Below, piece by piece: positions 1 through 57,355 of a DNA stretch of 64,000 nucleotides; the first letter of the stretch is position 1, and every line of letters starts with the position of its first letter. A model generated the notes under the pieces. That model worked only from the letters and a program-made list of their open reading frames with translations. It had not been told where the DNA came from and did no database searches. A program made the translations under genes and the position numbers. Source of the stretch: an uncultured Alphaproteobacteria bacterium. Its GTDB lineage: Bacteria > Pseudomonadota > Alphaproteobacteria > Rs-D84. Location of the stretch: positions 1 to 64,000 of the forward strand of contig CALXMU010000003.1 of NCBI GenBank assembly GCA_944389555.1. The letters are read 5' to 3'.

Positions 1-1668
1 ACAGTAAGTGCAACATTCCAAGCTGATCCTGGTGCGTATGTTACGGGAAGTGGTGCAAGCTCAAGCTGCAGCCGGTGCGGTGCAAATGACTATTGTGCCG
101 GTGGAACCAGTGCCGCTCAGAATTGCCCGACAAATTATCCGTACTCTGCGGCCGGATCTTCGGAAATAACGCAGTGTTATAGTGGAACAAAATCTCGTGC
201 ATGGACTGGAAGTCAGGTAAATGGTAGCGTTCCAGCAAATTGTGCAAGTGTTACTAGTTGGAATTCTTGTTCTATACCTGCGTGTGATTATGTAGCGTAT
301 TCTAACAGTGCTGGTACGGGAGATGGCACAATAAAGAGTGGTTGCTCGTCTAATAGTGCATCTTGTACAAAAACTCCGGCATCAGTAACTGCAGATAGCG
401 GTTATTATGACGCAGGTAGCAGTTGTTCTAAATGCCCTACTGGGTATCCAAACTCTGCGGATGAAAATGACGGCGGAATAACTCAGTGTTATAGTAATAC
501 GAAGTCTCGTGCATGGACAGGAAGTCAGACGGCCTGTACAAAACCAACAGGATGCTATTCTGTTACTTGTAACGCATGTTCTGGTGAGGCGTGTTCGTAT
601 GTCGCATACTCTAATAGCACAGGTACAGGTGACGGAACTATAAAGAGCGGTTGTTCAACAAATAATGCTTCTTGTCAGCAGACGGTCAATACAGTTACTG
701 CAAATGCCGGTAGGTATGTAAGTGGTAAAACCTGCCCTGTTTGTTCGGTTGGAACTTACCAAGGTACAAATGGGGCAACCGTAACTAGTTGTTCTGTGTG
801 TTCTGGAAATACTTATGCTGCGTCAGAAGGTATGTCTGCATGTAGTAGTTGCCCATCTGGATATAGCATATCTGGAACAACCGCCGCAAATCACGATGCG
901 AAGTCTGATTGTAAGATAAGCTGCGCTGCAGGAACGCAAGTGGTAACCGCAGACGCTGCTTGTACTACGCCGGCTGATAGTTGGTATTCTGCAGCTCATA
1001 CAGTGCCCGCGGGTTCTACGTCTGGGACAAATGTAAAGGATTGTTTGACTAATTATTATACGCCTGATACTACAACACGTACGGATCATGATTCTTCTAC
1101 GGATTGTAAGATAAGTTGTTCGGCTGGAACTAGAATCGTGTCGGCAAATGCCACAAGTTGTACAACGCCATCAGGTAACTGGTATATTGGTGCACACAGC
1201 GTTTCTCAAGGTAGTACAAGCAGTGTAAACAGCTGTCTGGCTAATTATACGATAAGTGGCACAGCAGCAACAAACCATGATGCGGCGAATGACTGTAAGA
1301 TAACATGCTCTGGTGGCTCTTATATCGCTACGGCTAATAACACTTCCTGTTCACCTGTGGGTGCTGGATTCTGGGCAGCTGCCTCTACTGTTTCACAAGG
1401 AAGTGCTGGGTTACGTAACGCTTGTGCAGATGGTTTGACCACTATCGGATCGGGAAGCGGCGCCGACGAAGCTGGTGATTGCGGCCGAGTGCTGAATTTC
1501 AACGGTGAAAAAGTTTATCTGCGTAGTGATAAAAAGACGACTCCATCGTTGAATGTAAGCATTAGCGGAAAGACCTTCTACGGTAATATGGGAACTGGTG
1601 TTGATGGGGCATTGAAAATAAAGTCCGGTAGCACGACTTATTCTGTATATGATGACAGTATGGAATAA
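1..1668 (+). CDS. Cysteine-rich repeat surface/secreted protein, 3' part only
   Basis: The reading frame is open from base 1 to the stop at 1666-1668, so the start lies outside the window; methionine 796 is internal. The 555 visible residues are rich in Cys, Ser, Thr and Gly. Two units about 103 residues apart share CYSGTKSRAWTGSQ and YVAYSNSAGTGDGTIKSGC. Further on, a unit with NHDA..DCKISC and WY.AAH.V..GSTS occurs three times with a period of 63-66 residues. The last ~65 residues lack cysteine and look like a small beta-rich C-terminal domain. The style matches the giant protein at 49627-56118, so I infer a secreted or surface role with many disulfides. A strong terminator follows. No enzymatic motif is visible and the function is unknown. 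Confidence 0.85.
   Translation, partial: TVSATFQADPGAYVTGSGASSSCSRCGANDYCAGGTSAAQNCPTNYPYSAAGSSEITQCYSGTKSRAWTGSQVNGSVPANCASVTSWNSCSIPACDYVAYSNSAGTGDGTIKSGCSSNSASCTKTPASVTADSGYYDAGSSCSKCPTGYPNSADENDGGITQCYSNTKSRAWTGSQTACTKPTGCYSVTCNACSGEACSYVAYSNSTGTGDGTIKSGCSTNNASCQQTVNTVTANAGRYVSGKTCPVCSVGTYQGTNGATVTSCSVCSGNTYAASEGMSACSSCPSGYSISGTTAANHDAKSDCKISCAAGTQVVTADAACTTPADSWYSAAHTVPAGSTSGTNVKDCLTNYYTPDTTTRTDHDSSTDCKISCSAGTRIVSANATSCTTPSGNWYIGAHSVSQGSTSSVNSCLANYTISGTAATNHDAANDCKITCSGGSYIATANNTSCSPVGAGFWAAASTVSQGSAGLRNACADGLTTIGSGSGADEAGDCGRVLNFNGEKVYLRSDKKTTPSLNVSISGKTFYGNMGTGVDGALKIKSGSTTYSVYDDSME
178..665 (+). repeat. Two-copy internal repeat of the cysteine-rich gene
   Basis: Near-identical stretches begin at 178 and 487 (309 bp apart, encoding CYS.TKSRAWTGSQ) and again near 286 and 595 (encoding YVAYSNS.GTGDGTIKSGC). 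They indicate duplication of a ~103-residue module. Confidence 0.75.
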
Positions 1669-2082: not shown

Positions 2083-4692
2083 ATGTTAAAAAATGTAATT
2101 GCAAAATTATTAGGTTCTGCCAATGACAGGGTGGTAAAATCTTATGATAAAATTGTTTCTTTAATAAATGATTTGGAACCGAAATATCACGCGATGTCTG
2201 ATGAAGAATTGCGCGCGCAAACGGATGTTTTACGGAAACGTATCGCCGACGGGGAAAAAGAAAAAAACATATTACCAGATGCTTTTGCCGCGGTAAGAGA
2301 AGCGTCTATTCGTTCCATAGGATTAAGACATTTTAATGTTCAGCTGATTGGTGGTATGGTTTTGACAAACGGTCAAATCGCTGAGATGAAAACCGGTGAA
2401 GGTAAAACCTTGGTTGCCACGTTGGCTTTATACTTAAAGGCTTTGTACGGTAAAGGTGCTCATTTAATTACTGTAAATGATTATTTGGCCTCTCGTGATG
2501 CTGAGTGGATGGGGCAAGTTTACCGTTTCTTGGGTATGTCTGTTGGAATCATTCAGCACGATATGACTGACGATGAACGGCGTAACGCGTATGCGTGTGA
2601 TATTACATATGTTACAAATTCGGAGTTAGGTTTTGATTACTTACGTGATAATATGAAGTTTTCAAAAGCGCAACAAGTTTTGCGACCTTTGTTCTATGCA
2701 ATCGTTGACGAGGTGGATAGCATTTTGATTGATGAGGCTCGTACGCCTTTGATTATATCGGGGCCCGCGGAAGATACTAGCGAATTATATGAAAAGGTAG
2801 ACGCTGTTGTCGCTAAATTGTCTGCGGATGACTATAAAAAGGATGAAAAAGATCGTCATGTCACATTGACTGAAAGTGGTGTGGATAATGCTACTCGTCT
2901 ACTTAAATCTGCAGGTTTGTTAGTAGGAGATAATTTGTATGCTTCTGAAAATGCCGCATTAGTTATGCATATTCAGCAATCTTTGTTAGCACACCACTTA
3001 TACCAGAAAAATGTAAATTATGTTGTTAGAGACGGAGAGATTTTAATCGTAGATGAGTTTACGGGGCGTGTTATGACAGGTCGTCGTTTCGGCAAGGGTT
3101 TACATCAGGCAATAGAAGCGAAAGAGCATGTTAAAGTTCAACCGGAAAATCAAACTGTGTCTAGCATATCGTATCAAAATTTATTCCGTTTGTACCCGAC
3201 TTTGTCTGGTATGACCGGAACGGCGATGACAGAAGCTGCTGAATTTGAAGAAATTTATAAACTACGTGTAGTTTCTATACCGACAAATCGCCCTGTCGCT
3301 CGTATAGACCATCATGATGAAATATATCGTAATAAGGAAGAAAAATACGAAGCCATTATAAAACAGATTGAAGACTGTATGAACCGTAAACAACCTGTAT
3401 TGGTTGGGACAGTTTCAATAGAAAAATCGGAAGAGTTGGCAGCAATAGTGCGTAAGAAGTTAGGCATAAATCCAGCTGTCTTAAACGCAAAGCATCATGA
3501 GTCAGAGGCTAAAATAGTTGCTCAAGCTGGTGCACCAGGAGCGGTTACAATCGCAACGAATATGGCTGGACGCGGAACAGATATTAAATTAGGCGGTAAC
3601 GCAGAAGAACTAATCGCAGAATTGGACCCAGAGGCACCAGATTTCGAATCTAAAAAACAAGAAATCTATGCAAAAATTGAAAGCAATAAAAAGTTAGTTC
3701 TGGATGCGGGCGGATTATATGTAATCGGTACAGAACGTCACGAGTCGCGTCGTATTGATAATCAGTTGCGTGGTCGTAGCGGTCGTCAAGGCGACCCTGG
3801 GGACTCTAAGTTCTTCTTGGCTTTAGATGACGATTTAATGCGTATATTTGGTGCGGCACGTTTGCAGGGCATGTTGACTACATTGGGGTTAAAACCGGGT
3901 GAAGCCATAACGCATCCTTGGATAACGAAAGCATTAGAAAAAGCGCAAAAACGAGTTGAGGCAAGGTACTTTGAATCTCGTAAGGAATTGTTGAAGTACG
4001 ATGATGTTATGAATGAACAACGTGGTGTCGTATATAAACAACGTGACGATTTGATGGTTTCTGATGATTTAACTTCTTTGGCGCACGAAATGATAGGTGA
4101 CGTCATAGAAATGATTTGTGAAACGAATATACCAGAAAAATCTCATCAAGCTGATTGGAATATAAAAGGTATCCATGATGCTATGTTGCGTACGTTCGCT
4201 TTGGATATTACAGATTTAGAAAAATGGAAAACAGATGAAACTGTATCAGAACGTAGAGCTTTTGAAATATTACATAATTTGGCGATGAGACGTTATCAAC
4301 AACAAGCCGAAAAATACGGCCCTGAATTGATGCAAATGGCGTCCAGACAAATGATGCTTGGTGCGTTGGATTCTGTATGGAAACGTCATTTGCAGCAAAT
4401 GGATTATCTGCAGACGGCGATAGGTTTGCGTGGTTATGCACAGAAAAATCCTTTGTATGAATACAAACGCGAAGCATTAGACTTGTTTAGAAACACAATA
4501 AATAACTTTAAGATAATGTCTGTATCATATATATGTCGTATGGAGTTGACTCGTGAAGACGTTGACGCCACAGAAAAAGAACGCGCACAGCATGATGCTT
4601 CATTAAACGACGCTGGTGAAGCACGCAGAAATGCCCCCTGCCCGTGTGGCTCCGGATTGAAATACAAACATTGTTGTGGCAAGCTTAAATAA
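2083..4692 (+). CDS. secA: Preprotein translocase ATPase SecA
   Basis: SecA is the ATP-driven motor that pushes unfolded preproteins through SecYEG. The 869-residue product is of normal family length and order: Walker A (MKTGEGKTLVATL, about residue 105), the DEVDSILIDEARTP Walker B region, NBD2 with GTVSIEKSE and NMAGRGTDIKLG, the conserved TERHESRRIDNQLRGRSGRQGD segment, the helical scaffold (ESRKELLKYDDVMNEQR) and a C-terminal zinc SEC-C motif (CPCGSGLKYKHCCGK) typical of SecB-using proteobacteria. I chose ATG 2083 (MLKNVIAKLL) because it has AAGG upstream and matches the usual N-terminus; an in-frame TTG at 2026 would add 19 unusual residues. A bidirectional terminator follows. Confidence 0.97.
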   Translation: MLKNVIAKLLGSANDRVVKSYDKIVSLINDLEPKYHAMSDEELRAQTDVLRKRIADGEKEKNILPDAFAAVREASIRSIGLRHFNVQLIGGMVLTNGQIAEMKTGEGKTLVATLALYLKALYGKGAHLITVNDYLASRDAEWMGQVYRFLGMSVGIIQHDMTDDERRNAYACDITYVTNSELGFDYLRDNMKFSKAQQVLRPLFYAIVDEVDSILIDEARTPLIISGPAEDTSELYEKVDAVVAKLSADDYKKDEKDRHVTLTESGVDNATRLLKSAGLLVGDNLYASENAALVMHIQQSLLAHHLYQKNVNYVVRDGEILIVDEFTGRVMTGRRFGKGLHQAIEAKEHVKVQPENQTVSSISYQNLFRLYPTLSGMTGTAMTEAAEFEEIYKLRVVSIPTNRPVARIDHHDEIYRNKEEKYEAIIKQIEDCMNRKQPVLVGTVSIEKSEELAAIVRKKLGINPAVLNAKHHESEAKIVAQAGAPGAVTIATNMAGRGTDIKLGGNAEELIAELDPEAPDFESKKQEIYAKIESNKKLVLDAGGLYVIGTERHESRRIDNQLRGRSGRQGDPGDSKFFLALDDDLMRIFGAARLQGMLTTLGLKPGEAITHPWITKALEKAQKRVEARYFESRKELLKYDDVMNEQRGVVYKQRDDLMVSDDLTSLAHEMIGDVIEMICETNIPEKSHQADWNIKGIHDAMLRTFALDITDLEKWKTDETVSERRAFEILHNLAMRRYQQQAEKYGPELMQMASRQMMLGALDSVWKRHLQQMDYLQTAIGLRGYAQKNPLYEYKREALDLFRNTINNFKIMSVSYICRMELTREDVDATEKERAQHDASLNDAGEARRNAPCPCGSGLKYKHCCGKLK

Positions 4693-4693
4693 T

Positions 4694-4724
4694 AAAAAAA
4701 TCCCGCTTTTGCGGGATTTTTTAT
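4694..4724 (+). terminator. Bidirectional terminator between secA and the phosphofructokinase gene
   Basis: Hairpin AAATCCCGC-TTTT-GCGGGATTT flanked by A and T tracts, so it can end transcription from both convergent genes. It overlaps the last codons of the minus-strand gene. Confidence 0.85.
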
Positions 4725-5800
4725 TTTGTCTCTCCGATATAAATTCCCATGTCCGTAGCGATATCCAACAATGGGTCGTCCGGAGAAATATATGCGTCTG
4801 AAGTTTTTATGTCTGGAATATTTGGGTCTGGGGTAACTTCGCCAGATTCAAAAAATTGCTGTAAACTTACGGTCTTGCATGTGCAATCATTTATCGCTGT
4901 CATTACATATGTTTCATTGTTTTCTATTGCGTGTATTGCACAGTCTGCCATACGTGCCGCTAAAATTCTATCTGCGGCTGTTGTGTCGCCTACGCGTTGA
5001 GTATGTTCAGGATATGCGGTTCTATTCATAATGCCGGCCGCCGTCAATTTACGCGAAATCATATCGGCAGGTTTACCAGAATGCCCACGTAACGAAATAC
5101 CTTCGGATACTAAAATTATTCCGTAATCTGTCGGTGACTTTTTTATGTGATTTATAAGTGAGTCCACATCAAATTTTATTTCCGGAATTAGAATTGCTGT
5201 TGCACCAATGGCAATACCAGCATTTAATGCAAGTTGTCCGCAATCACGCCCCATAGTTTGTGTTACAAACCATCTGTGATGACTTCGCGCAGTCAGCATT
5301 AACTGATCACAAAAAGATGTTAGCTGTTGAACAGCAGTGTTAAAACCAATCGTTTTATCAGTTAACGGTATGTCCATATCTATCGTCTTCGGAATGCATA
5401 TCAACTGAAGTCCATTATAAATTTCACGGTTACACCAAGCCAAAGACAGGCTACCGTTGCCGCCAATTAAAATAACAGCGTCAAGTTTTAATTCTAATAA
5501 TGATTTTCGTAATTGTTTATTGAATTTCTCAAGTTTTCCTGTTTTTGCCGCGGTTTCAAAATTTAGAGCTTGCGCACGTCCATTATGTAAGAAACTGCCA
5601 GCAAGGCGAGCCGCCTCAATAGGTAAAGTATTATCATTAAATTCTATTATGCGTGGCGGCGTTTCACATAACCCGTCCGTACCGTCTAAGATACCGATTG
5701 TTTGCCAACCGCGAAGTGACGCTGCACGATATAAGCGCTGAATCACGGTGTTCAAACCAGAACAATCTCCCCCTGTTGTCATAATACCAATGCGTTTCAT
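4721..5800 (-). CDS. 6-phosphofructokinase family protein, divergent
   Basis: A 359-residue member of the PfkA superfamily (phosphorylation of fructose 6-phosphate in glycolysis). Family motifs are visible in order: TTGGDCSGLN (residues 8-17), GGNGSLSLA (113-121), PKTIDMDIP (137-145), GFNTAV, MGRDCGQLAL and VSEG. Lys138, where ATP-dependent enzymes such as E. coli PfkA have Gly (PGTIDND), is typical of the PPi-dependent/group III branch. The metal-site Asp of GGDG is Asn115 here; the catalytic TID aspartate (141) and the following Asp143 remain. The phosphate donor therefore cannot be assigned, and altered activity is possible. The start has GGAG 4-8 nt upstream. It is divergent from the LysM gene. 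Confidence 0.85.
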   Translation of the reverse strand: MKRIGIMTTGGDCSGLNTVIQRLYRAASLRGWQTIGILDGTDGLCETPPRIIEFNDNTLPIEAARLAGSFLHNGRAQALNFETAAKTGKLEKFNKQLRKSLLELKLDAVILIGGNGSLSLAWCNREIYNGLQLICIPKTIDMDIPLTDKTIGFNTAVQQLTSFCDQLMLTARSHHRWFVTQTMGRDCGQLALNAGIAIGATAILIPEIKFDVDSLINHIKKSPTDYGIILVSEGISLRGHSGKPADMISRKLTAAGIMNRTAYPEHTQRVGDTTAADRILAARMADCAIHAIENNETYVMTAINDCTCKTVSLQQFFESGEVTPDPNIPDIKTSDAYISPDDPLLDIATDMGIYIGETK

Positions 5801-5840
5801 TTGAACTCCATTTAATCCATTAAATTATATCACAAATAAG

Positions 5841-5868
5841 TTGACAAAGAAATTATTTTTGCAATAAT
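5841..5868 (+). promoter_or_regulatory. Promoter of the LysM gene
   Basis: TTGACA at 5841-5846 and AATAAT at 5863-5868 with a 16-nt spacer, 44 nt before the start codon. A strong AGGAG ribosome site lies at 5898-5902. Confidence 0.6.
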
Positions 5869-5911
5869 TTGTCCAAAGACAATAAAAGATAAAACGCAGG
5901 AGATTATTGGT

Positions 5912-7060
5912 ATGTCAAAGAATAACAAAAACAGCAATATCGGCAAAACAAAACGCTCAACCGACGAATTGATTGATTCTGCTATTGCACAGCAGAATGA
6001 TTGGATGGAAAATCGTCGGAATTTTGCGCGTCGTTTTTTGAAAACGTTAAATATTTTTGCACGTCCTAATCCCAAAAAAGAAGAAAATGAAGTTGCTTTG
6101 AGTGTAAATGTTAAGGAAACAAAGTCTCGTAAAGGTTTGGCTTCGTATTGGTTCCCTATTTTGTGTGCGATAATCGTTGTCTTTGTTGCTGTTTGGGTGG
6201 CGTTCTTTCATGGCGGCGTTCAGAAAGTTATCGTTGTACCGCCTGTCGCTGAACCAACAATACAAGCTGTTATAGAAAATCCTACCCCGTCTTTTGATAT
6301 CGTCCGTATCGAACAAGAAGGAAATATCATTGTTGCTGGTCGTTGGTTGGCAGACGAAAGCGTTTCCATAGTAATCAATGGCGATATCGTCGCTACAGAA
6401 CGCACAGATAAAAATGGTGAGTTTGTATATTCACCTAATCGTAAATTTGACGCAGGAAACTACACTATTTCTTTAATCGGCGTCAACGGCAATGTCAAAT
6501 CAGAAGAAAACGTGTTTGTTTATATCTCTGAACATGGGTATAAGAATTCTGTTTCGTTGTTAATGACCAAAGACGGCAGCACATTGCTTCAAGCTCCTAC
6601 TATGTTAACAGATGGTGACTTGGTCGTTTCTAAGATAGATTATTTAGATACAGGTCGTATTGTTGTTACAGGTGATTCTTTACCACGTTTGCGTGTGTCA
6701 TTAGCCCTAAACGATAAGTATTTAGGTTTTGCACGTGTTTCTGACCATAAACATTTTGGTTTGGGTGCAGACGTGGGAACGTTAGAAAGCGGTAAAGAGT
6801 ATAAACTAACTGTACGGTTGCACGATGGTGATGGAAGAACAATTGCCGAAATAAATCACGAATTTATTATGCCAGAAATGACAGGTGACGATGATACTTA
6901 TTACACCGTTAGAAAAGGCGATTGCTTATGGATTATTGCCCGTAACTTTTTACGTCGTGGCATTTTATTTAGCATCATAGCAGAACGGAACAATATTGGA
7001 AACCCAGATTTGATATTTCCTAAGCAGGAATTACAGATACCAACAGGGGCAAGTAAATAA
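5912..7060 (+). CDS. Membrane-anchored LysM-domain protein
   Basis: A 382-residue protein with a basic cytoplasmic N-terminus of about 80 residues, one membrane segment (about residues 81-100, FPILCAIIVVFVAVWVAFF), a long periplasmic part with Ig-like/beta-sandwich repeats (GRWLADESVSIVINGD...DKNGEFVYSP; GDSLPRLRVSLALND) and a C-terminal LysM (YYTVRKGDCLWIIARNFL...NPDLIFPKQELQIP). LysM domains bind peptidoglycan, so I infer envelope attachment. The layout resembles alphaproteobacterial LysM peptidoglycan-binding proteins near division or amidase genes, but no catalytic domain is present. AGGAG at 5898-5902 fixes the start. The stop overlaps the next start by one base (TAATG), implying translational coupling. 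Confidence 0.85.
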   Translation: MSKNNKNSNIGKTKRSTDELIDSAIAQQNDWMENRRNFARRFLKTLNIFARPNPKKEENEVALSVNVKETKSRKGLASYWFPILCAIIVVFVAVWVAFFHGGVQKVIVVPPVAEPTIQAVIENPTPSFDIVRIEQEGNIIVAGRWLADESVSIVINGDIVATERTDKNGEFVYSPNRKFDAGNYTISLIGVNGNVKSEENVFVYISEHGYKNSVSLLMTKDGSTLLQAPTMLTDGDLVVSKIDYLDTGRIVVTGDSLPRLRVSLALNDKYLGFARVSDHKHFGLGADVGTLESGKEYKLTVRLHDGDGRTIAEINHEFIMPEMTGDDDTYYTVRKGDCLWIIARNFLRRGILFSIIAERNNIGNPDLIFPKQELQIPTGASK

Positions 7061-32047: not shown

Positions 32048-32878
32048 TTAATTTTTATACGGACACCCCGAAGAAATATCATATTTACCTTTAGCATCAG
32101 TATATATACCATTCCCACTAGTAAACGCTATACAAGAAGTAATACCTACGCCACTACCACCCGCATACCAAAAATACCCATTATAAGTGTTTGTATTCGA
32201 TGTATTAGTAAAAGTCTCTCCAGTTGGATAATTCCTAAAACCAGGACACGCAGCACAACACGCAGATATATTACTTAACGAAGGTGTTGCAGTACCCGAG
32301 CAATAATTATTTGCATTGGTAATATACCAACCCGTTTCACAACGATCAAAAACGTATTCATTTCTCAAAAAACGATCCCAAACGGCCCCCTGGGTATTTG
32401 GGATTACGCCATAATGAGCAAAAATTCCGCTATTAACACAATATAGTCCCGAAGGATTGCAAAAACCATAGCCGGTGCCACTACAATAATCTAATCCGGT
32501 TTGGTAACTGCTTGATAAACATCTAACCAATGCACAACGTATAGAATCTTCACCCGAAATAAACGTTTGTCCCCCACCACTACCAGTGCCAGTAGGAAGG
32601 GAGCCGTCACCACCAACTGTTCTATCAAAACAAACTGTCGTATCAAAGTTACATCCCGTAACAATAGGAGCTATATTAGTACCCTCCAGCCTACAATTAT
32701 AATTTTGCAAGAGATTTTGGCCGGTACCATAATACGCGAAACCACTTAGCTTCTGATAAACTGGCTTTGTGGTATAATATGCAAACCCCGTTTTCGTTTC
32801 CGCCAATCCTGTACGGTGAAATACAGAAGTAAATACAGCAACCAAGCAGCCAAGAAACCTTATCCCCGAACGATACAT
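32048..32878 (-). CDS. Secreted cysteine-rich protein of unknown function
   Basis: A 276-residue protein with an N-terminal hydrophobic signal (RFLGCLVAVFTSVFHRTGLAE) followed by two copies of a FAYY-containing segment (TKTGFAYYTTKPVYQ, LSGFAYYGTGQN). The rest is rich in Gly, Ser, Thr, Tyr and Cys, with paired cysteines (SACCAACPG, CNPSGLYC, RCALVRC). It resembles the other cysteine-rich secreted proteins of this window in composition but shares no clear repeat. A good ribosome site (AGGGGGAAAG) and promoter are present. Function unknown. Confidence 0.78.
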   Translation of the reverse strand: MYRSGIRFLGCLVAVFTSVFHRTGLAETKTGFAYYTTKPVYQKLSGFAYYGTGQNLLQNYNCRLEGTNIAPIVTGCNFDTTVCFDRTVGGDGSLPTGTGSGGGQTFISGEDSIRCALVRCLSSSYQTGLDYCSGTGYGFCNPSGLYCVNSGIFAHYGVIPNTQGAVWDRFLRNEYVFDRCETGWYITNANNYCSGTATPSLSNISACCAACPGFRNYPTGETFTNTSNTNTYNGYFWYAGGSGVGITSCIAFTSGNGIYTDAKGKYDISSGCPYKN

Positions 32879-48071: not shown

Positions 48072-49343
48072 TTAAATTGCGGAAACAAAATCTAAAACTC
48101 GATTATCAAAAATAACATCTCGCGCATGTAAAGGCGACGCAATGTGCATATCTGACGCATTACGAGTTCTGGACAAAGCCACATATGTCTGCCCGTGTGC
48201 AAAAGCTCCCCGAGAAATATCAACTATTACACTATCCAGAGTCTTACCTTGGGCTTTGTGTATTGTCATCGCATATCCAAGGTTTAACGGAAATTGCTTA
48301 AAACTACCAACTTCGTTTTCTTGCAATCTATCATTTTCATCACGCGAATATTCAATCTTTTGCCATTTTTCTGGTTTTACACTTACAACATCGCGCGTTT
48401 TATTTAATAATTCAACGATAATTTCTCGTGACAACAAATTCCGAACTATTCCCATAGAACCGTTATGCCATTTATCCCCGTTTTTAACGAACACCACCAA
48501 CGCACCAACTTTCAAAGTTAAATTCATAGGTGCCGGAACGTCCCTTTCTTGAAACGTACCCGTCAATTCTCCGGTATACATTATTTCTGGTGCATTTATC
48601 TGTGCTAAGCGTGAGGCGTTTATACGTTCCGCCACCGCACGAAACGGTGTAATTATAACCGCGTTTTCTAAACGTGCCGCATCAGTAATTTTACAGGAAT
48701 TGAAAAATTCTAATGCGCTTAAATCATTATGTCTTAATCTACGTAAGTTTTCTAACAAACTTATATCATTTTGACGGTATACTAAATCGAAATCATACCT
48801 AAGAAATTCTGCTCTTTTATACACATTACTGTCAAAGAAATATGCGTTTTCATACTCATAAGCCATTCTATAATAATCCATTGCTTCGCGAGTAATCACT
48901 GGCGGCAATTGAAACAAATCACCTATGGCAACAACCTGTAATCCTCCAAAAGGTTCATTATTATGCCTTGCACTACGAGCCAATATATCAACGGCATCTA
49001 ACAAGTCTGGTGCGACCATAGAAATTTCATCGATTATTAAAACATCCGCAGCATTTAATATATTACGAGGTTTCGCTTTTAATTTTAATAATTCTGGCAT
49101 TATAAAGTCGCGCGGTTGTATTTGAAATAAAGAATGTATAGTCTGTCCTCCGACATTTAGTGCCGATACAGCCGTCGGGCAAGCACATATTATACGCTTC
49201 TTTGACGAGGTTTTTAAGTAATTTACAAAAGTAGATTTTCCTGTACCTGCCTGCCCTAATATAAGTAAATTAGAATTTGTGCGTTCAATCGTATTGAAAG
49301 CACGTAATTGCGCGTCGCTTAAAATTTTAACTAATTCCGCCAT
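48072..49343 (-). CDS. PIF1-like helicase (AAA ATPase)
   Basis: A 423-residue superfamily 1B helicase of the PIF1/RecD branch: Walker A (LLILGQAGTGKSTFVNYLK), CPTAVSALNVGGQTIHSLF, Walker B (LIIDEISMVAPDLLDAVDIL), GGLQVVAIGDLFQLPPVI, and the C-terminal LNLGYAMTIHKAQGKTLDSVIVD and YVALSRTRNASDM. These enzymes unwind G-quadruplex and forked DNA. Start: ATG 49343 chosen; the earlier in-frame ATG would precede a TATACA box 7 nt upstream of this ATG. It faces rimI head to tail. Confidence 0.9.
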   Translation of the reverse strand: MAELVKILSDAQLRAFNTIERTNSNLLILGQAGTGKSTFVNYLKTSSKKRIICACPTAVSALNVGGQTIHSLFQIQPRDFIMPELLKLKAKPRNILNAADVLIIDEISMVAPDLLDAVDILARSARHNNEPFGGLQVVAIGDLFQLPPVITREAMDYYRMAYEYENAYFFDSNVYKRAEFLRYDFDLVYRQNDISLLENLRRLRHNDLSALEFFNSCKITDAARLENAVIITPFRAVAERINASRLAQINAPEIMYTGELTGTFQERDVPAPMNLTLKVGALVVFVKNGDKWHNGSMGIVRNLLSREIIVELLNKTRDVVSVKPEKWQKIEYSRDENDRLQENEVGSFKQFPLNLGYAMTIHKAQGKTLDSVIVDISRGAFAHGQTYVALSRTRNASDMHIASPLHARDVIFDNRVLDFVSAI

Positions 49344-49401
49344 GACTGTATGTATAGTTACACAGTACAAAATAAAAATAAAGCATATAAATAAAAATCA
49401 C

Positions 49402-49438: not shown

Positions 49439-49515
49439 GGGTTAGTAGCTCAGTTGGTTAGAGCGGAGCGCTCATAACGCTTTGGTCGTGGGTTCAAGTC
49501 CTACCTAACCCACCA
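49439..49515 (+). tRNA. tRNA with CAT anticodon, probably tRNA-Ile2
   Basis: A 77-nt cloverleaf with acceptor GGGTTAG/CTAACCC, anticodon stem GAGCG/CGCTT, loop CTCATAA (anticodon CAT), T arm GTGGG-TTCAAGT-CCTAC and encoded CCA. The variable region and GGTTCAAGTCC resemble E. coli ileX rather than elongator tRNA-Met, so a lysidine-modified tRNA-Ile2 is likely; Met cannot be excluded. Confidence 0.85.
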
Positions 49516-49523
49516 CAATTATT

Positions 49524-49547
49524 ACACGCCTGGGGCGTGTTTTTTTA
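49524..49547 (+). terminator. Terminator after the CAT-anticodon tRNA
   Basis: ACACGCC-TGG-GGCGTGT followed by seven T. Confidence 0.9.
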
Positions 49548-49626
49548 TTTTATTATAAATCTTGTATTTTTCTCTTGCGTGATATGTATGTTTTTTTCTA
49601 GAATAAAATATAAAAGAGAGGAAAGT

Positions 49627-52600
49627 ATGGGAAAAAATCGCTGTTTTCTGGGCATTTTTGCATCTTTGTTCATTGCATTATTCACAAGTAATTTGCTTGC
49701 CAGTGGGTATGATTGTTCGGTTTATAAAAAATATACAAGCTGTAATACAGGATACTATCTAAATGGAACTGGTGTTGGAAACAGCTGTACCGCTTGCACG
49801 AGTGTTGCTGCAACAGATTTAACCCAAACATGTAATCGAAATGCAACAAGTACAGAATTATCAAATGCTCATGCATCCGCTGGTACAATTAGTGGTGCGT
49901 CACAACGTTGTACAGGCAAACATACCGGTGGTGCTGGTGGTACATCGGCGGCAACAGCATGTACTGGTTGTAGTGCTTGGGGCACATGTACTGGGGGTAC
50001 ATTTAAAGCCACTTCGTGTTTAGCTAGCTATTATCTTAATAATGGCACATGTACGTCATGTACGAGTGTTGCTGCAACAGATTTAACCCAAACATGTAAT
50101 CGAAATGCAACAAGTACAGAATTATCAAATGCACATGCGTCCGCTGGTACAATTAGTGGTGCGTCACAACGTTGTACAGGGAACCATACAGGTGGTGCCG
50201 GTGGAACTTCAACTTCTACATCATGTTCTGGTTGTAGTTCTTGGGGAACTTGTTCTGGCGGTACATTTAAAGCTACGTCATGTTCTGCAAACTATTACCT
50301 TAGCAATGGAACTTGTACATCTTGTACAACGGTTAGTGCAACAGATCTAACTCAATCATGCTCTCGTTCTTGCACGACTCAAGAACTAAATACTTTGCAC
50401 GCAACCTCAGGTACTGTTAGCGGTGCAAATCAGGCTTGTACAGGCAAACATACCGGTGGTGCTGGTGGTACATCGGCGGCAACATCTTGTACTGGTTGCA
50501 GTAATTGGGGCACATGTACCGGGGGCACATGTACGGCAACAGCTTGTTCGTCAGGGTATTATTTCAGCAACAATAAATGTACGTCGTGCACGACTGTTGC
50601 TAACAACACCCAAATTGGCTCAACCAGTATAACTGGTGGTAAAAGAATTCAAACATGTACTGGTTATTATACTGGTGGTGCTGGTGGTACTAATGGTTCA
50701 TCATCATGTACTGGATGTTCTGCGTCCACATATACATGTTCATGTAATGCAGGTTATCATGTTTCTGGTTCTGGTGCTTCATGTACATGCAAACCAGACA
50801 ATATATCAGTTTCATGTTCTGGTGGAAAATACATAGCAAAAGGTGCGACGACTTGTTCCACACAATGCCCTGCAAATAGTTATTGTGCTGCCAAAAGTTA
50901 TACCATTCCATATACAGGCGCAACGGCAAATACTGGTATAACAGGTACATGTGATTCTGGTTATTCTTCACCAGCAGGTTCATCTGCAGAAACTCAGTGT
51001 ACAAAATCTTGTTCTGTGGCCTGTAAACGCCCATCGTGTCCGTCAAATGCATCATGCTCCTACGGATCAGAAACTGGTAATGGTACGATGAACCAGGTAA
51101 CACAAACTTGTAATGCTACGGCTCCGTCATGTTCGATGCGGTTTACATGTAATAGTGGTTACACAAAAAGTGGAAATTCTTGTGTGCCTGCAACATATAC
51201 TATAACATATAAAAATGGTGGCGGTGTCGGTGCTGACGAAACCCAAAGTGTAACTTATAAATCAACTTTCAAAACTAAACCATCGACAACGTTTACTCGG
51301 CCGGGCTATAACTTCAGCAGTTGGGGTGGTTCATATCCGAATCCTAATAGTGACTATACTTATAATACTGCCGGAAATACAACCTTAACGGCACAATGGT
51401 CCGCATGTAGTAGAGCGCCAACCGCACCTGGAACATGTAATTGTCCAAGCACACAGTTCCCTAATGGTTCTGGTTGTGAAGCCTGTTCAAAGTCTTGCGC
51501 TAGCGTTTCTGGCTTTACATTGGGTACATATGATGTATGTAAAAGTCAAACAAACGGTCAATGCTATCGTAACTGTACAACATCAGATGTAGCCAATTCA
51601 TCAGAAGTTTCTGGCACGGTAACAAAGTCTGGCACAAAAACATGTAAAGCAACATCGTGTAAAGAAAATTACTACGTTTCTGGAAGTGGTTGTGCTGCAT
51701 GTATACCAAACGCAACCTGTCCAGGCGGTGATGAACCTCCACAGTGTAATTCTGGTTATCATATGTCCGATGGGGTTTGTGAACCTGATGAATACTCCAT
51801 TACTTTGAAGAAAAATGGTGGTACCGGCACAATCAATGGTTCAACAGGAACAACTGACGCCACTCAAAAGTGTAAACATGGAGAATTATGTGATTTACCG
51901 TCTAGTGGTTTAACACGTACAGGTTATGCCTTTACGGGATGGGGTGATTCTGCCGGCTGCACAAGTGGTATATACCAAAAGATATTTACGGGTGCTGCTA
52001 CTATGTATGCTTGTTGGTCACAACAAACAGTACAGTGTCAAGCGGGTAAATATTATAATGGTTCTAGTCACGTTACCTGCCCTGCTGGGAAATATTGCCC
52101 GGGCACAGGAAGTGCCAGCGTAGGTGCAGCAGGTTGTGGAAGTGATTGTCCTCCATCTGGAACGTCTGATGCAGGCGCAACAAGCAAGAACCAATGCTAT
52201 ATTACTTGCTCAGCTAAAACCATTACTGGCGGTAAGTTGACGGCAACTTCTAACAAATCAAATTATAACGGTTCTGCTTATCCGGCATGTACTTATACGG
52301 CAACATGTAACGTTGGTTACGTAGCATCTGGAAATGGTACAGCTGCAGCTACTTGTACCAAATGCGAAGACGGTCAAAATTGTCCGGGCGGTTCAAGTGA
52401 AGACGAACCGGAAGATTGCCCAGTCGGTTCATACTGCGAAGACGGTGTAAAAAAGCAATGCCCGTCCGGCGGAACTTCTGCTGCGGGAGCCGGTTCTATA
52501 AACGACTGTTATAAGGTGTGCCCACCAACATTAAGCATAGAAAATGGTAACGGTATATCCACAGGTAATGCTTACTATAGCGGTTCATCATACCCTGCGT

Positions 52601-55600
52601 GTCAATATCGCGCAGAGTGCGATAAAGGGTATACTGCTAAAAACAGTCCAAGTGCCGCACCATCTTGTGTATGGGCTGATCCAGACGCTTGTCCTGTCGG
52701 TTATTACTGCCCAGATGGTGGAAACCCTGTTAAGTGCCCAGATGGTGGTACGTCTGATGGCGGTGCACTATCTATAACTCAGTGTTATAAGATATTTGAT
52801 GACTATGAAGGTTTCCAGAATGGTGTTGCTTCTGCGAAATGCTTCTATCAAACTTCTACAACTAAATATGATGCTTGCAGCATATTAGAAGTAAAAAGTT
52901 GTATTGCCGGTTATTGGTACGCCCAACAGAATGCATTCTTATGCAGCGGCACAGAAAGCGGTTATTATAGCCCAGCAGGACAAATAACTCAGACGGCCTG
53001 CCCTGTTGATAAAAGCGGCGGAAAAGTAGAGTCGTCAGAATATGCCTCAAGTTATATAAACTGTTATAAAACTTGCGCTCTGACGGTTGCTAATTCTACA
53101 TCAGTAGCTGCTAAGGATAATACAGTATACGGGATAAGCGCAACAGAATATGCCGCATGTTCATTCAATGTAACTTGCAAAACAGGTTATACTGTTGCAA
53201 ACAACAATACTGAAAATCCTTCTTGTAAGGCGAATGAATATACCATTACCTTAGACAAGAATGGTGGTTCAGGTTCTACACCGGCAAGTGTAAAATGTAC
53301 ATTTGATAGTGGTAGCTGCGAATTGCCGGCAGTAACTGGGTTGTCAAGACCGGGTTATACCGTACAGACAAAATGGTGCACAGATAAAAACGGTACGGGT
53401 ACTTGTTATTATGCGGGTCAATCAACGTCAACGAACATATCTGCAACGGGTACAAGCATAACTCTTTATGCTGTGTGGTCGCCGAATATCTATGAGGTAG
53501 ATTTGGACCACCAAAGTGCTACTACAGCAGGTGCTCCGAACACTGTATACTTGAAATATGCGACAGGTTGGTACAGCAATAGTGGCGCGACAACTTCTAT
53601 ATCAAAGTTGACAACCATACCAAAAAGAACAGGTTACGAGTTCGCTGGATACTACAGTGCAAAATCTGGTGGAACGCAAGTAATCGGTGCAACAGGAATT
53701 TTCCAGACGTCGGAAAATGCTCTGACCTTCACGACAACAGATTCTGCAACAATATATGCTAGATGGTCTCGAGGAACAGCTTATTGTGCACCTGGTACAT
53801 ACTATACCGGAACTGGTACTCAATGTAAGACATGCAAAGCAAATAATTATTGCCCAGGTGGAAACTTTGATACGGATAGCGGTGTAGAAGAAGGTTTGAA
53901 CGCATGTCCGGAGCAAGGTAGTTCAACCACAGGAGCTGACTCTATCGAGAAATGCTATAAAACGAAGTTAGTTTACAATGCTTCGCATGGTTCTGGTACA
54001 CAAACATGTAACTATAATGATACCGCTAAGTCGTATAGCGCAAACTGTAAAGATAAGGTAATAAATATCTGTGACGCGGGTTATTACCTAGCTGATTCTG
54101 GTAACGCAAACCCAGATTGTGACCCTGTTGGCAGGGGATACTACAGCGATGGTAAAGGTACTTCTCGTACACAGTGTCCAAACGGTGGTGACACAGAAAC
54201 AGATACTTCAACCGTCATACAGCAATGCTTTAAAACAGGATTGCAATATGAGGCGGTATACGGTTCCGGAACGCAACGCTGCTTCTATTCTAGCGGTTCA
54301 GGTACATCTGCGATATACCAACGCGACTGTGACACCAAGGTTATTAACAGCTGTCGTGGTGGATATTGGCTGGCAGATAGCGACGACATAGATTGCGTAG
54401 AAGTACAACAAAACTATTATAGTGTATCTGGTGACATAGAACGCCACGCTTGCCCAGCCAACGGTAAGACCAACGGGACAACGTCAGACGATATACTGTT
54501 GTGCTACAAAGACGGTCTACCTTACACAGAGGCACAACATGGTACTGGAGAATATCTGTGCTACTACACCAGCGGTGAAGGTGATAACGCAATATATGCT
54601 TCAAGTTGCGATTTGCCGACCATGACAAGCTGTGATGCAGGTTACTACTACGACCACATTATATTAGCCACAGACTGTATGCCTGCTGACATAGGATATT
54701 ACAGCCCAGCAGTAGATACAGCGCGCTACAAGTGCCCATTGGATGGTACGACAGAAACAAAAACAAGCGCATCCGCATCTGACTGTTATCGTGATGATAT
54801 GGCTTGCGACATCGTAAATGGTTCTGGTGAGCAAACGTGTAACTATAGTGAGGTTGACAGCGATTATACTCTAAATTGTAAAACTTGCTATGTAACCAAG
54901 TGCGATGAAGGGTTCTCTCAGGTTGGTAACACCTGTATCAATTGCCCAGAAGGTAGTGTATGTTCTGACGGTAAGCAAGAAACTTGCGCCTCACTAACCG
55001 ATGGCAAGTATCCTAAATCTGACCAAGGAACAACCGATGTCGCGATGTGTTATACAGATTGTAAGATAGCCTCTAACGCGGCAGCAATGGAAGGTAGAGA
55101 TTACTACCAGAGCCCAGACACCTGCAAAATAAAGCGTTGTCTGGCTGGATATACGCTTGAAAACGGTCAATGCGTAGAATGTCCGGAAGGTAGTTTCTGC
55201 GACGGAACCACGGATCCAGATAACCCTGGCGATGATGTAAAATCATGCGCAGACTTGGGAGACGGTGACTGGAAGTATTCTATGCCTGGTGCGACCGACG
55301 AAAGCGGTTGTTATCAGACTTGCCAAGCGTATGAAGTAATTTACGGTATGGCAATACCGGTCGCTGATAAAGCTTTCTATCCGGAAGAATGTGAGTATAG
55401 AGGTGAATCAGACACTGGAAATCCATGTGATATCATAGACGGTGTTTGCGTAGAAACTTCTTGTAACCCGGGATATGAAATGAAAGATGGTATTTGCGTA
55501 GACTGTGACCGTGAATATGCCCTATCCTATAAGGAAGGTGGAATATGCCAAGTTGCAGAATGCGTATTAGGTTATCATCCAAACGGCGACAAGTGTGAAA

Positions 55601-56118
55601 CTAACGTTCAATCGTGTACTGCACCAAATGCTATATCAGCAGAAAGAACGTGGGATTATTCAAAGAACGCGTTTGGGTCTTGCATGATAAAAGAATGTGA
55701 TTACGGTTATCACTTAGCTCTAAACGCCTGCGTATCTGACGTACAACCATGTAACGTTGAAAATGGCGCAGGATTTAAAGAATGGGATTCCGCAATCAAT
55801 GACTGGGGAGAATGTGTAGCAACCTTGTGTAACCCAGGCTATACAAATGACCCGTCTGAAACAAACGAACACACAAAACAATGTGGTGAGTGTAAAAATA
55901 AATATAGTGTTTTTGGTAAGCTTGCCGCAAGTAGTTATGTCCAAGGTTGTGAGATTGCATCTTGTATGTATCAGGGAGAGTTGTACAACCTAGAATATAA
56001 TGAATGTGTACCTATCTGCCCGATGTCTGAGTATGAAGACGAAACTGGAACGATGGTATGGGACGAAAGTAGGAAAAAGTGCGTTCGTACGTGTAAAGAA
56101 GGTTACACAATGTGGTAA
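49627..56118 (+). CDS. Giant cysteine-rich repeat protein, secreted
   Basis: A 2163-residue protein starting ATG 49627 with AGAGAGG upstream; MGKNRCFLGIFASLFIALFTSNLLASG is a signal peptide. A cysteine occurs roughly every 10-15 residues throughout. The N-terminal part has three 88-residue tandem repeats (SVAATDLTQTCNRNATSTEL..., GGAGGTS) and a degenerate fourth. Four InlB/Flg_new-like beta-grasp repeats (about 51194-51402, 51793-52020, 53238-53481, 53490-53771; each with ITL/ITY.KNGG and a terminal TLYA.W-type strand) interrupt it. Later modules resemble EGF- or GCC2/GCC3-type growth-factor-like repeats (CPAGKYCPG, CP.GGTS.AGA). No transmembrane anchor or LPXTG is seen at the C-terminus. Role inferred: large surface or secreted adhesive protein. 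Confidence 0.9.
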   Translation: MGKNRCFLGIFASLFIALFTSNLLASGYDCSVYKKYTSCNTGYYLNGTGVGNSCTACTSVAATDLTQTCNRNATSTELSNAHASAGTISGASQRCTGKHTGGAGGTSAATACTGCSAWGTCTGGTFKATSCLASYYLNNGTCTSCTSVAATDLTQTCNRNATSTELSNAHASAGTISGASQRCTGNHTGGAGGTSTSTSCSGCSSWGTCSGGTFKATSCSANYYLSNGTCTSCTTVSATDLTQSCSRSCTTQELNTLHATSGTVSGANQACTGKHTGGAGGTSAATSCTGCSNWGTCTGGTCTATACSSGYYFSNNKCTSCTTVANNTQIGSTSITGGKRIQTCTGYYTGGAGGTNGSSSCTGCSASTYTCSCNAGYHVSGSGASCTCKPDNISVSCSGGKYIAKGATTCSTQCPANSYCAAKSYTIPYTGATANTGITGTCDSGYSSPAGSSAETQCTKSCSVACKRPSCPSNASCSYGSETGNGTMNQVTQTCNATAPSCSMRFTCNSGYTKSGNSCVPATYTITYKNGGGVGADETQSVTYKSTFKTKPSTTFTRPGYNFSSWGGSYPNPNSDYTYNTAGNTTLTAQWSACSRAPTAPGTCNCPSTQFPNGSGCEACSKSCASVSGFTLGTYDVCKSQTNGQCYRNCTTSDVANSSEVSGTVTKSGTKTCKATSCKENYYVSGSGCAACIPNATCPGGDEPPQCNSGYHMSDGVCEPDEYSITLKKNGGTGTINGSTGTTDATQKCKHGELCDLPSSGLTRTGYAFTGWGDSAGCTSGIYQKIFTGAATMYACWSQQTVQCQAGKYYNGSSHVTCPAGKYCPGTGSASVGAAGCGSDCPPSGTSDAGATSKNQCYITCSAKTITGGKLTATSNKSNYNGSAYPACTYTATCNVGYVASGNGTAAATCTKCEDGQNCPGGSSEDEPEDCPVGSYCEDGVKKQCPSGGTSAAGAGSINDCYKVCPPTLSIENGNGISTGNAYYSGSSYPACQYRAECDKGYTAKNSPSAAPSCVWADPDACPVGYYCPDGGNPVKCPDGGTSDGGALSITQCYKIFDDYEGFQNGVASAKCFYQTSTTKYDACSILEVKSCIAGYWYAQQNAFLCSGTESGYYSPAGQITQTACPVDKSGGKVESSEYASSYINCYKTCALTVANSTSVAAKDNTVYGISATEYAACSFNVTCKTGYTVANNNTENPSCKANEYTITLDKNGGSGSTPASVKCTFDSGSCELPAVTGLSRPGYTVQTKWCTDKNGTGTCYYAGQSTSTNISATGTSITLYAVWSPNIYEVDLDHQSATTAGAPNTVYLKYATGWYSNSGATTSISKLTTIPKRTGYEFAGYYSAKSGGTQVIGATGIFQTSENALTFTTTDSATIYARWSRGTAYCAPGTYYTGTGTQCKTCKANNYCPGGNFDTDSGVEEGLNACPEQGSSTTGADSIEKCYKTKLVYNASHGSGTQTCNYNDTAKSYSANCKDKVINICDAGYYLADSGNANPDCDPVGRGYYSDGKGTSRTQCPNGGDTETDTSTVIQQCFKTGLQYEAVYGSGTQRCFYSSGSGTSAIYQRDCDTKVINSCRGGYWLADSDDIDCVEVQQNYYSVSGDIERHACPANGKTNGTTSDDILLCYKDGLPYTEAQHGTGEYLCYYTSGEGDNAIYASSCDLPTMTSCDAGYYYDHIILATDCMPADIGYYSPAVDTARYKCPLDGTTETKTSASASDCYRDDMACDIVNGSGEQTCNYSEVDSDYTLNCKTCYVTKCDEGFSQVGNTCINCPEGSVCSDGKQETCASLTDGKYPKSDQGTTDVAMCYTDCKIASNAAAMEGRDYYQSPDTCKIKRCLAGYTLENGQCVECPEGSFCDGTTDPDNPGDDVKSCADLGDGDWKYSMPGATDESGCYQTCQAYEVIYGMAIPVADKAFYPEECEYRGESDTGNPCDIIDGVCVETSCNPGYEMKDGICVDCDREYALSYKEGGICQVAECVLGYHPNGDKCETNVQSCTAPNAISAERTWDYSKNAFGSCMIKECDYGYHLALNACVSDVQPCNVENGAGFKEWDSAINDWGECVATLCNPGYTNDPSETNEHTKQCGECKNKYSVFGKLAASSYVQGCEIASCMYQGELYNLEYNECVPICPMSEYEDETGTMVWDESRKKCVRTCKEGYTMW
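49798..50655 (+). repeat. 264-bp tandem repeats in the giant gene
   Basis: Copies start at 49798, 50062, 50326 and, degenerate and truncated, 50590, with an exact 264-bp (88-codon) period. Copies 1 and 2 are nearly identical over about 120 bp at their starts, while copy 3 matches copy 1, not 2, in the later 50-bp GGAGGTSAAT-coding tract. Confidence 0.88.
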
Positions 56119-56122
56119 AAAC

Positions 56123-56147
56123 AAACGCCCCTTATACGGGGCGTTTT
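56123..56147 (+). terminator. Terminator of the giant gene
   Basis: AAACGCCCC-TTATAC-GGGGCGTTTTTTA. Confidence 0.9.
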
Positions 56148-56200: not shown

Positions 56201-57355
56201 ATGGCGAAACACTATGACGTTGTAATTATAGGGGCTGGGGCAGCCGGTTTAGCGGCAGCAGCTACAGCTATTGCCAATGATAAAAAGGTGGCAATTCTGG
56301 AAATGGGCGACTCTCCAGCAAGAAAAGTCTCTATATCTGGTGGTGGCAGATGTAATTTTACTAATGCCGCTGTATCTGTAGACAAATATTTCGGGCAAAA
56401 TCCAAACTTCGTACGAAGTGCCATTTCACGTATTACACCCAACGACATACTTAAATGGGCGTATGAACATCAAATTAAATGGGAAGAGAAAAATCCAGGG
56501 CAATATTTCTGTTCAACTGGTGCAAAAGACATAGTAAAAGCTCTTTTAAAAGATGCAAAAAACGCAGACCTATTTCTTACCACACTTGTTACCAATATTG
56601 AATTTATTGATAACAAATTTTATATTTACTCGAAATCTGATGAATTTATTGCAACTTCTTTAATAATTGCCACTGGCGGCACATCTTTTCAAACAGTCGG
56701 TGTTTCTGATTTTGGATACAAAATAGCCAAACAATTCGGACATAAAATAATTCCTGTACGCCCCGCTCTATGCGCAATCCAAACAAACTCTTTTTCTTCT
56801 GATTTGTCTGGCATAGCGATAAACGTGGAAATTACCATAGCTAAACATAAAATAAAAGATTCTATGCTATTTACTCATTTTGGAATTGGTGGTCCCGCAA
56901 TATATAAAACAACCGTACGCGATTTTAACGATATCCATATAAATCTACTGCCGGACACTAATGCATATGACTTTTTACGTTCCGCAAAACAAAAAGTCGG
57001 GCGGAAAAGTGTGGCAAACGTATTGTCTGAAAAGTTACCAATGCGCCTTGCTAAATGGATTTGTAATAATACTAAAAATATCGCAGATTATAAAGACGCA
57101 GAATTAAAACTGATTGCAGAACGAATAAACAATATAACCATTACAAATAAAGACATAAAACTACATAATTTACAAAGTGCAGAGGTCGTTCGCGGTGGCG
57201 TTGATACTTCGAACGTTTCCTCCAAGACAATGGAATCAAAATTGCAACCTAGATTGTTTTTTGTTGGTGAAGTGCTAGATGTAGCTGGTGATCTTGGCGG
57301 TTTTAATTTACACTGGGCTTGGGCCAGCGGTCGAATAGCAGGAGAAAACGCGTAA
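56201..57355 (+). CDS. HI0933/BaiN-family flavoprotein
   Basis: A 384-residue NAD(P)/FAD-dependent oxidoreductase: FAD-binding MAKHYDVVIIGAGAAGLAAAATA, the family signature RKVSISGGGRCNFTNAAV, LIIATGGTSFQTVGVSDFGYKIA, FTHFGIGGPAIYK and the C-terminal FVGEVLDVAGDLGGFNLHWAWASGRIAGE. The family's substrates are poorly known (BaiN acts on bile acid intermediates; others are uncharacterised), so only the cofactor is predicted. No Shine-Dalgarno is evident; the ATG is preceded by a TATACA 8 nt upstream, though no clear -35 is seen. Confidence 0.9.
   Translation: MAKHYDVVIIGAGAAGLAAAATAIANDKKVAILEMGDSPARKVSISGGGRCNFTNAAVSVDKYFGQNPNFVRSAISRITPNDILKWAYEHQIKWEEKNPGQYFCSTGAKDIVKALLKDAKNADLFLTTLVTNIEFIDNKFYIYSKSDEFIATSLIIATGGTSFQTVGVSDFGYKIAKQFGHKIIPVRPALCAIQTNSFSSDLSGIAINVEITIAKHKIKDSMLFTHFGIGGPAIYKTTVRDFNDIHINLLPDTNAYDFLRSAKQKVGRKSVANVLSEKLPMRLAKWICNNTKNIADYKDAELKLIAERINNITITNKDIKLHNLQSAEVVRGGVDTSNVSSKTMESKLQPRLFFVGEVLDVAGDLGGFNLHWAWASGRIAGENA

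Follow-up and report, generated by a model that had tools for sequence, protein, structure and literature searches.

The locus at positions 49627..56118 (+) of the window (the whole stretch of 64,000 nucleotides that was analysed) raises the question of what a bacterium with a genome of 882,323 bases in five contigs does with an apparently secreted, cysteine-rich protein of 2163 aa, whose gene takes up, with its stop codon, about 6.5 kb (statements below on the content of this genome come from targeted searches and selected stretches). The frame is unbroken over the 2163 residues claimed by the first-pass annotation, and the longest open frame in 200 shuffles of the DNA of 49627-56118 had 232 codons. 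An assembly or chance artefact is ruled out by this unbroken frame, by kept synteny and by purifying selection. From the sequence, ATG 49627 is the likely start of the gene, because GTG 49537 precedes the conserved promoter at 49574-49604 and because a conserved ribosome site (AGAGAGGAA) sits 5' of the ATG in relatives. The dense cysteines described at first pass are real: 177 of the 2163 residues (8.2%) are Cys, compared with 0.88% across 17 other genes of the window. The protein begins with a Sec-type signal peptide (49627..49701, +; recognised from sequence and hydropathy, and kept in relatives), which signal peptidase, to judge from the residues around the site, likely cuts after residue 25 (LLA/SG). 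Hydropathy over all 2163 aa found a strongly hydrophobic stretch only within residues 1-33 and no further membrane segment, in agreement with the signal peptide and the missing membrane anchor that had been claimed. A lipobox was not found either (LLA/SGYDC has no Cys at +1).

The gene is preceded by a promoter-like element, CTTGCRY-N11-TTTTTTCTANNAT (49574..49604, +), with a -35-like TTGCGT and a -10-like TAGAAT at a spacing of 18. It is the sole exact match in the window and also precedes the giant gene in relatives; a looser form was found at 72 of the 157 loci, a count in which some genomes were fetched more than once in overlapping stretches. A phase-variable promoter was considered and rejected: by eye, a T run varies by 1-2 bases while the -35/-10 spacing stays at 18. 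Upstream lie a tRNA-Met (CAT; 49439..49515, +) and, after it, a terminator-like hairpin (49524-49540), and another such hairpin follows the giant gene (56123..56146, +; readable on the other strand too). Hairpins of this kind are no commoner than chance in the region, and for the one at 56123-56146 only its position speaks. Given the upstream tRNA-Met and hairpin and the downstream hairpin, the giant gene is probably transcribed alone. The conserved left neighbour is a divergent gene for a RecD2/TraA-type helicase homologue (48072..49370, -), and the conserved right neighbour encodes a flavoprotein of the aminoacetone oxidase family (56201..57355, +). The same two genes flank the giant gene in most relatives; at five loci that lack it (L148, L149, L150, L152 and L153) they are 0.2-0.3 kb apart, and at L041 and L042 two or three giant copies stand in tandem. 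No exporter gene was found beside the giant gene at the locus.

The variable N-terminal part of the protein contains three tandem repeats of 264 nt (88 aa) each (49786..50577, +). Three Flg_new repeats (InlB-type beta-grasp, PF09479) lie at 51196..51396 (30.5 bits), 51793..52011 (32.5 bits) and 53239..53472 (26.6 bits alone, 27.5 bits with its neighbours; all on the + strand, cut-off 27), and the whole protein scores 64.8 bits; the InlB/Flg_new-like repeats proposed earlier were thus recovered by profile search, all three above the curated cut-off. Flg_new repeats are present in 18 of 20 full-length relatives. Similarity to the giant in the Flg_new region is also seen in two relatives, in open frames of 6344 aa (G088:C2, L053) and 6610 aa (G091:C2, L054). 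The protein continues with a stalk of disulfide modules of about 90 aa (residues 1436-1763; 53932..54915, +) and ends with a conserved, Cys-framed C-terminal region (residues 1764-2163; 54916..56115, +), in which conservation is highest over the last 250 residues. The last codon (56113..56115, +) encodes Trp, the final residue in 67 of the 71 members checked; the simplest guess is that it signals sorting or docking. Pfam and NCBIfam scans found neither leucine-rich repeat families, which places the protein outside the InlB-type internalins, nor an autotransporter barrel family; RTX repeats gave no match in the Pfam scan, and no enzyme or toxin domain was found in the domain scan. The cEGF family stayed below threshold (17.0 vs 26.6 bits), short of EGF membership, and GCC/Ephrin_rec_like had no match in the protein itself.

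Structure prediction by segment, proposed at first pass as a check, gave confident AlphaFold models for residues 1436-1763 (mean pLDDT 95.2, pTM 0.72) and 1764-2163 (mean pLDDT 90.9, pTM 0.50); because of these pTM values, the packing of the modules along the rod is less certain. For the modelled stalk, whose fold is TNFR/ELAPOR1-like, Foldseek returned ELAPOR1 (E 4.6e-5) and mastigonemes (4e-3 to 9e-3), followed by regions of TNFR and Eph type; TM-scores taken over whole alignments were low (0.08-0.28), so that the likeness is one of module type and not of the whole protein. For the C-terminal region Foldseek found nothing at E <= 0.001, and sequence searches of the PDB with both family profiles and with the Flg_new segments gave no match. 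One relative (L131) contains four tandem TNFR_ELAPOR1 stretches (86.3 bits, cut-off 33.2), and this match, made at the level of sequence profiles, is independent of the fold match for the stalk. On the models, the modules would be better named TNFR/Eph-type than EGF; the EGF/GCC-like modules of the first-pass annotation are therefore kept as a likeness of fold to TNFR/Eph-type Cys-rich regions and given up as family assignments. The modelled C-terminal region consists of short strands within disulfide modules. A type V autotransporter was rejected on this account, there being no translocator barrel in the model and no barrel family in the sequence.

With the whole giant protein as query, matches occur in 82 of the 95 genomes of its bacterial family. 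When the order was searched with a profile (A1) built from the last 250 residues, 111 of 190 genomes gave a match. In 93 of them it was strong (E < 1e-30), and all of these are from the same bacterial family; the remaining matches were short and weak and fell in other Cys-rich proteins. The longer C-terminal profile matched the own genus only (191 genomes of the class searched), and the stalk-module profile only the own genome (299 genomes of the phylum). A strong A1 match is missing from about half of the genomes sampled in the order, and the function is therefore not shared by all of them. The collections of phages, plasmids and viral contigs gave no match to the family, and an origin from a mobile element was rejected for want of a counterpart in them. 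As far as sampled, these profile matches point to a large family restricted to its own bacterial family. The count of relatives that had been suggested yields a family built on a single giant gene that usually keeps to a fixed locus throughout the bacterial family, with some genomes lacking it. We found no published description in the literature searched (which covered few subscription journals), and the family is apparently previously undescribed.

Conservation along the protein is graded: identity to relatives is 0.12-0.16 at residues 101-300 and rises to 0.76 at the C-terminus, and over the last 400 residues the Cys are kept at an identity of 0.98, the other residues at 0.61. The giant gene is under purifying selection, with a dN/dS of 0.04-0.13 by segment in the most closely related full-length pair. 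The genomes G068 and G064 differ at synonymous sites by 0.18-0.21 in three adjacent genes and by 0.08-0.19 in the C-terminal third of the giant gene; over residues 1-450 the difference is 0.59-0.79 and over 901-1200 about 0.7. We read the divergent stretches of this one pair as replaced segments; at identities of about 30% the modules may lack position-by-position homology, which would in itself be replacement. In other close pairs, divergence of the tip is milder.

The window also encodes, at 1-1668 (+), a Cys-rich protein truncated by the contig start, which the first-pass annotation had grouped with the giant. Its C-terminal domain (YLRSDKKTTPSLNV...YSVYDDSME) is unrelated to the C-terminus of the giant and occurs once in the own genome; a similar end is seen in another genome, on a protein of 512 aa (L147:6462-8000). 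Possibly the domain is a second C-terminal sorting domain. Membership of this protein in the giant family by a common C-terminus was rejected because the ends differ. The link between the two is a partial one, through their richness in cysteine. A family of host-interaction or surface-coat proteins, as had been suggested, is plausible from the conservation gradient, the segment replacement and the predicted receptor- or filament-like fold, and it is not the pair originally named. Further proteins of the own genome (797 and 807 aa at L133:1067-3460 and 4327-6750, contig C4, and 443 aa at L134:2326-3657, contig C1) look secreted and are moderately Cys-rich; the terminal module of the one at L133:1067-3460 resembles the C-terminal modules of the giant, and many relatives have similar proteins. 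At 32048-32878 (-) the window encodes a secreted Cys-rich protein of 276 aa (5.8% Cys) without a Pfam match.

The source organism, a gut bacterium, falls within Candidatus Enterousia or close to it; this genus of Alphaproteobacteria, incertae sedis, has been assigned to the order Rs-D84 (PMC12306168). Genomes of Rs-D84 are about 1 Mb or smaller, without a respiratory chain and with biosynthesis missing, and life as an obligate symbiont or parasite has been suggested (PMC12306168). Rod shape and wall-synthesis genes were inferred for the lineage, and as to interaction with a partner only hypothetical membrane-bound proteins were mentioned (PMC12306168). A targeted search of the own genome found a DsbA-type protein. 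On contig C1 a secretin adjoins a TcpQ homologue (L160:6752-9322), and GspE, GspF and PilO-like genes are grouped at L171:3089-7781; by homology, these sets would make up a type IVb pilus or a type II-like machine in a genome of less than 1 Mb. In the search for exporters, TolC-type genes were found to accompany MacAB and an RND pump. None of these DsbA, secretin/TcpQ, GspE/GspF/PilO-like and TolC genes is linked to the giant gene.

Our proposal, with a probability of roughly 0.6, is that the giant protein is exported by Sec and forms a modular fibre or adhesin on the cell surface, stiffened by disulfides; its surface location, a host and adhesive activity are what we infer from the following evidence. 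The protein has a signal peptide and no other membrane segment; its stalk and C-terminal folds are confidently modelled, with the ELAPOR1 ectodomain and mastigonemes as the nearest solved folds, and the L131 relative carries its four ELAPOR1-type TNFR stretches above cut-off. The identity gradient, the purifying selection, the replaced segments of the G068/G064 pair and the tandem repeats near the tip point in the same direction, as do the fixed locus with its promoter in a lineage that is probably partner-dependent (PMC12306168), and the presence of DsbA, secretin, TcpQ and GspE/GspF in the genome. Against it count that no outer-membrane anchor or secretion signal was recognised in the protein, that its gene has no exporter gene next to it, that a strong A1 match is confined to about half of the sampled genomes of the order, and that the TM-scores of the fold matches are low. 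The chain would cross the inner membrane via Sec, a DsbA-type oxidase would form its disulfides, and the folded rod would leave by an outer-membrane route, for which the secretin or type IVb pilus-like set of the genome is a candidate; the C-terminal region may then serve as the base, as a signal for export or docking, and contact with the partner cell may fall to the variable N-terminal tip.

The cysteines might instead join copies of the protein into a crosslinked coat that stiffens the outer envelope in chlamydial style and binds no partner. This is unlikely, although 177 is an odd number, so that at least one Cys is unpaired unless bonded to another chain, and although the conserved, strong-looking promoter would suit a bulk protein and the small genome of a bacterium that probably lives in dependence on others (PMC12306168) would suit such a coat, because nearly all Cys of the conserved part sit in confidently modelled module frames, the rapid change of the tip fits an exposed binding surface better, and the gene is cleanly missing from several genomes of the same genus. 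A substitute for the wall would also be unneeded, given the rod shape and wall-synthesis genes inferred for the lineage (PMC12306168). It is likewise improbable that the protein is set free into the surroundings as an unattached decoy, mucus binder or receptor mimic, as its lack of both a transmembrane anchor and a lipobox and the receptor-type (TNFR/Eph-like) fold of its modules would allow, since the strictly kept C-terminal region and last residue suggest docking or sorting to a cell component and no enzyme or toxin domain was found. A structural protein that never leaves the periplasm, for which the Sec signal and DsbA would suffice and with which the absence of a dedicated exporter from the neighbourhood agrees, is very improbable, because a periplasm would hardly have room for 2000-3400 residues of rod-like modules and the changing tip suggests exposure.

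As a surface fibre or adhesin, the giant protein can be set beside several known systems. With InlB it has in common the Flg_new or Listeria-Bacteroides repeat (PF09479, TIGR02543; the InlB B-repeats), which here makes up about one tenth of the protein, embedded between Cys-rich modules, and it differs from InlB in having no leucine-rich repeat and no Gram-positive wall anchor. Its predicted stalk is like the ELAPOR1, TNFR and Eph regions at 14-15% identity only, without a membrane anchor or signalling part; the protein itself reaches no Pfam TNFR family, and the likeness is one of fold that does not imply descent. The Chlamydomonas mastigoneme filament protein (8wa2, 9b4h), a weak Foldseek match, is also a very long extracellular disulfide-rich rod, but it is a eukaryotic glycoprotein filament, whereas here only rod modules are predicted. 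The signal peptide, repeat-module stalk, variable distal region and conserved C-terminus recall the large modular adhesins of Gram-negative bacteria, which are disulfide-free; the giant protein is disulfide-rich, has a lineage-restricted C-terminus and matches no autotransporter barrel or RTX family. Type I (RTX) adhesins are marked by RTX repeats, for which the Pfam scan gave no match here, and by a dedicated ABC exporter; the TolC-type genes found in the genome pair with MacAB and the RND pump. Giardia-type variant surface proteins need a C-terminal transmembrane segment and a short cytoplasmic tail, and the giant protein has neither; no family of the chlamydial Cys-rich outer-membrane complex proteins was matched in the Pfam and NCBIfam scans. 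It would act like modular adhesins and filament rods and stands outside internalins, autotransporters and EGF proteins. A tentative and rather doubtful extension is that Rs-D84 has a new class of contact fibre, in which a giant rod of disulfide modules would bear a lineage-specific sorting or anchoring domain at its C-terminus, with Trp as the last residue, and an exchangeable tip that chooses the partner cell.

If the models are right, receptor-like disulfide modules would be deployed at scale in an alphaproteobacterium. The family also offers a C-terminal region with a putative role in export or anchoring, and tip variants that can be compared with partners. For the reduced-genome Rs-D84 bacteria, which would take up metabolites from other cells, it would be a concrete, large and conserved candidate for the contact device.
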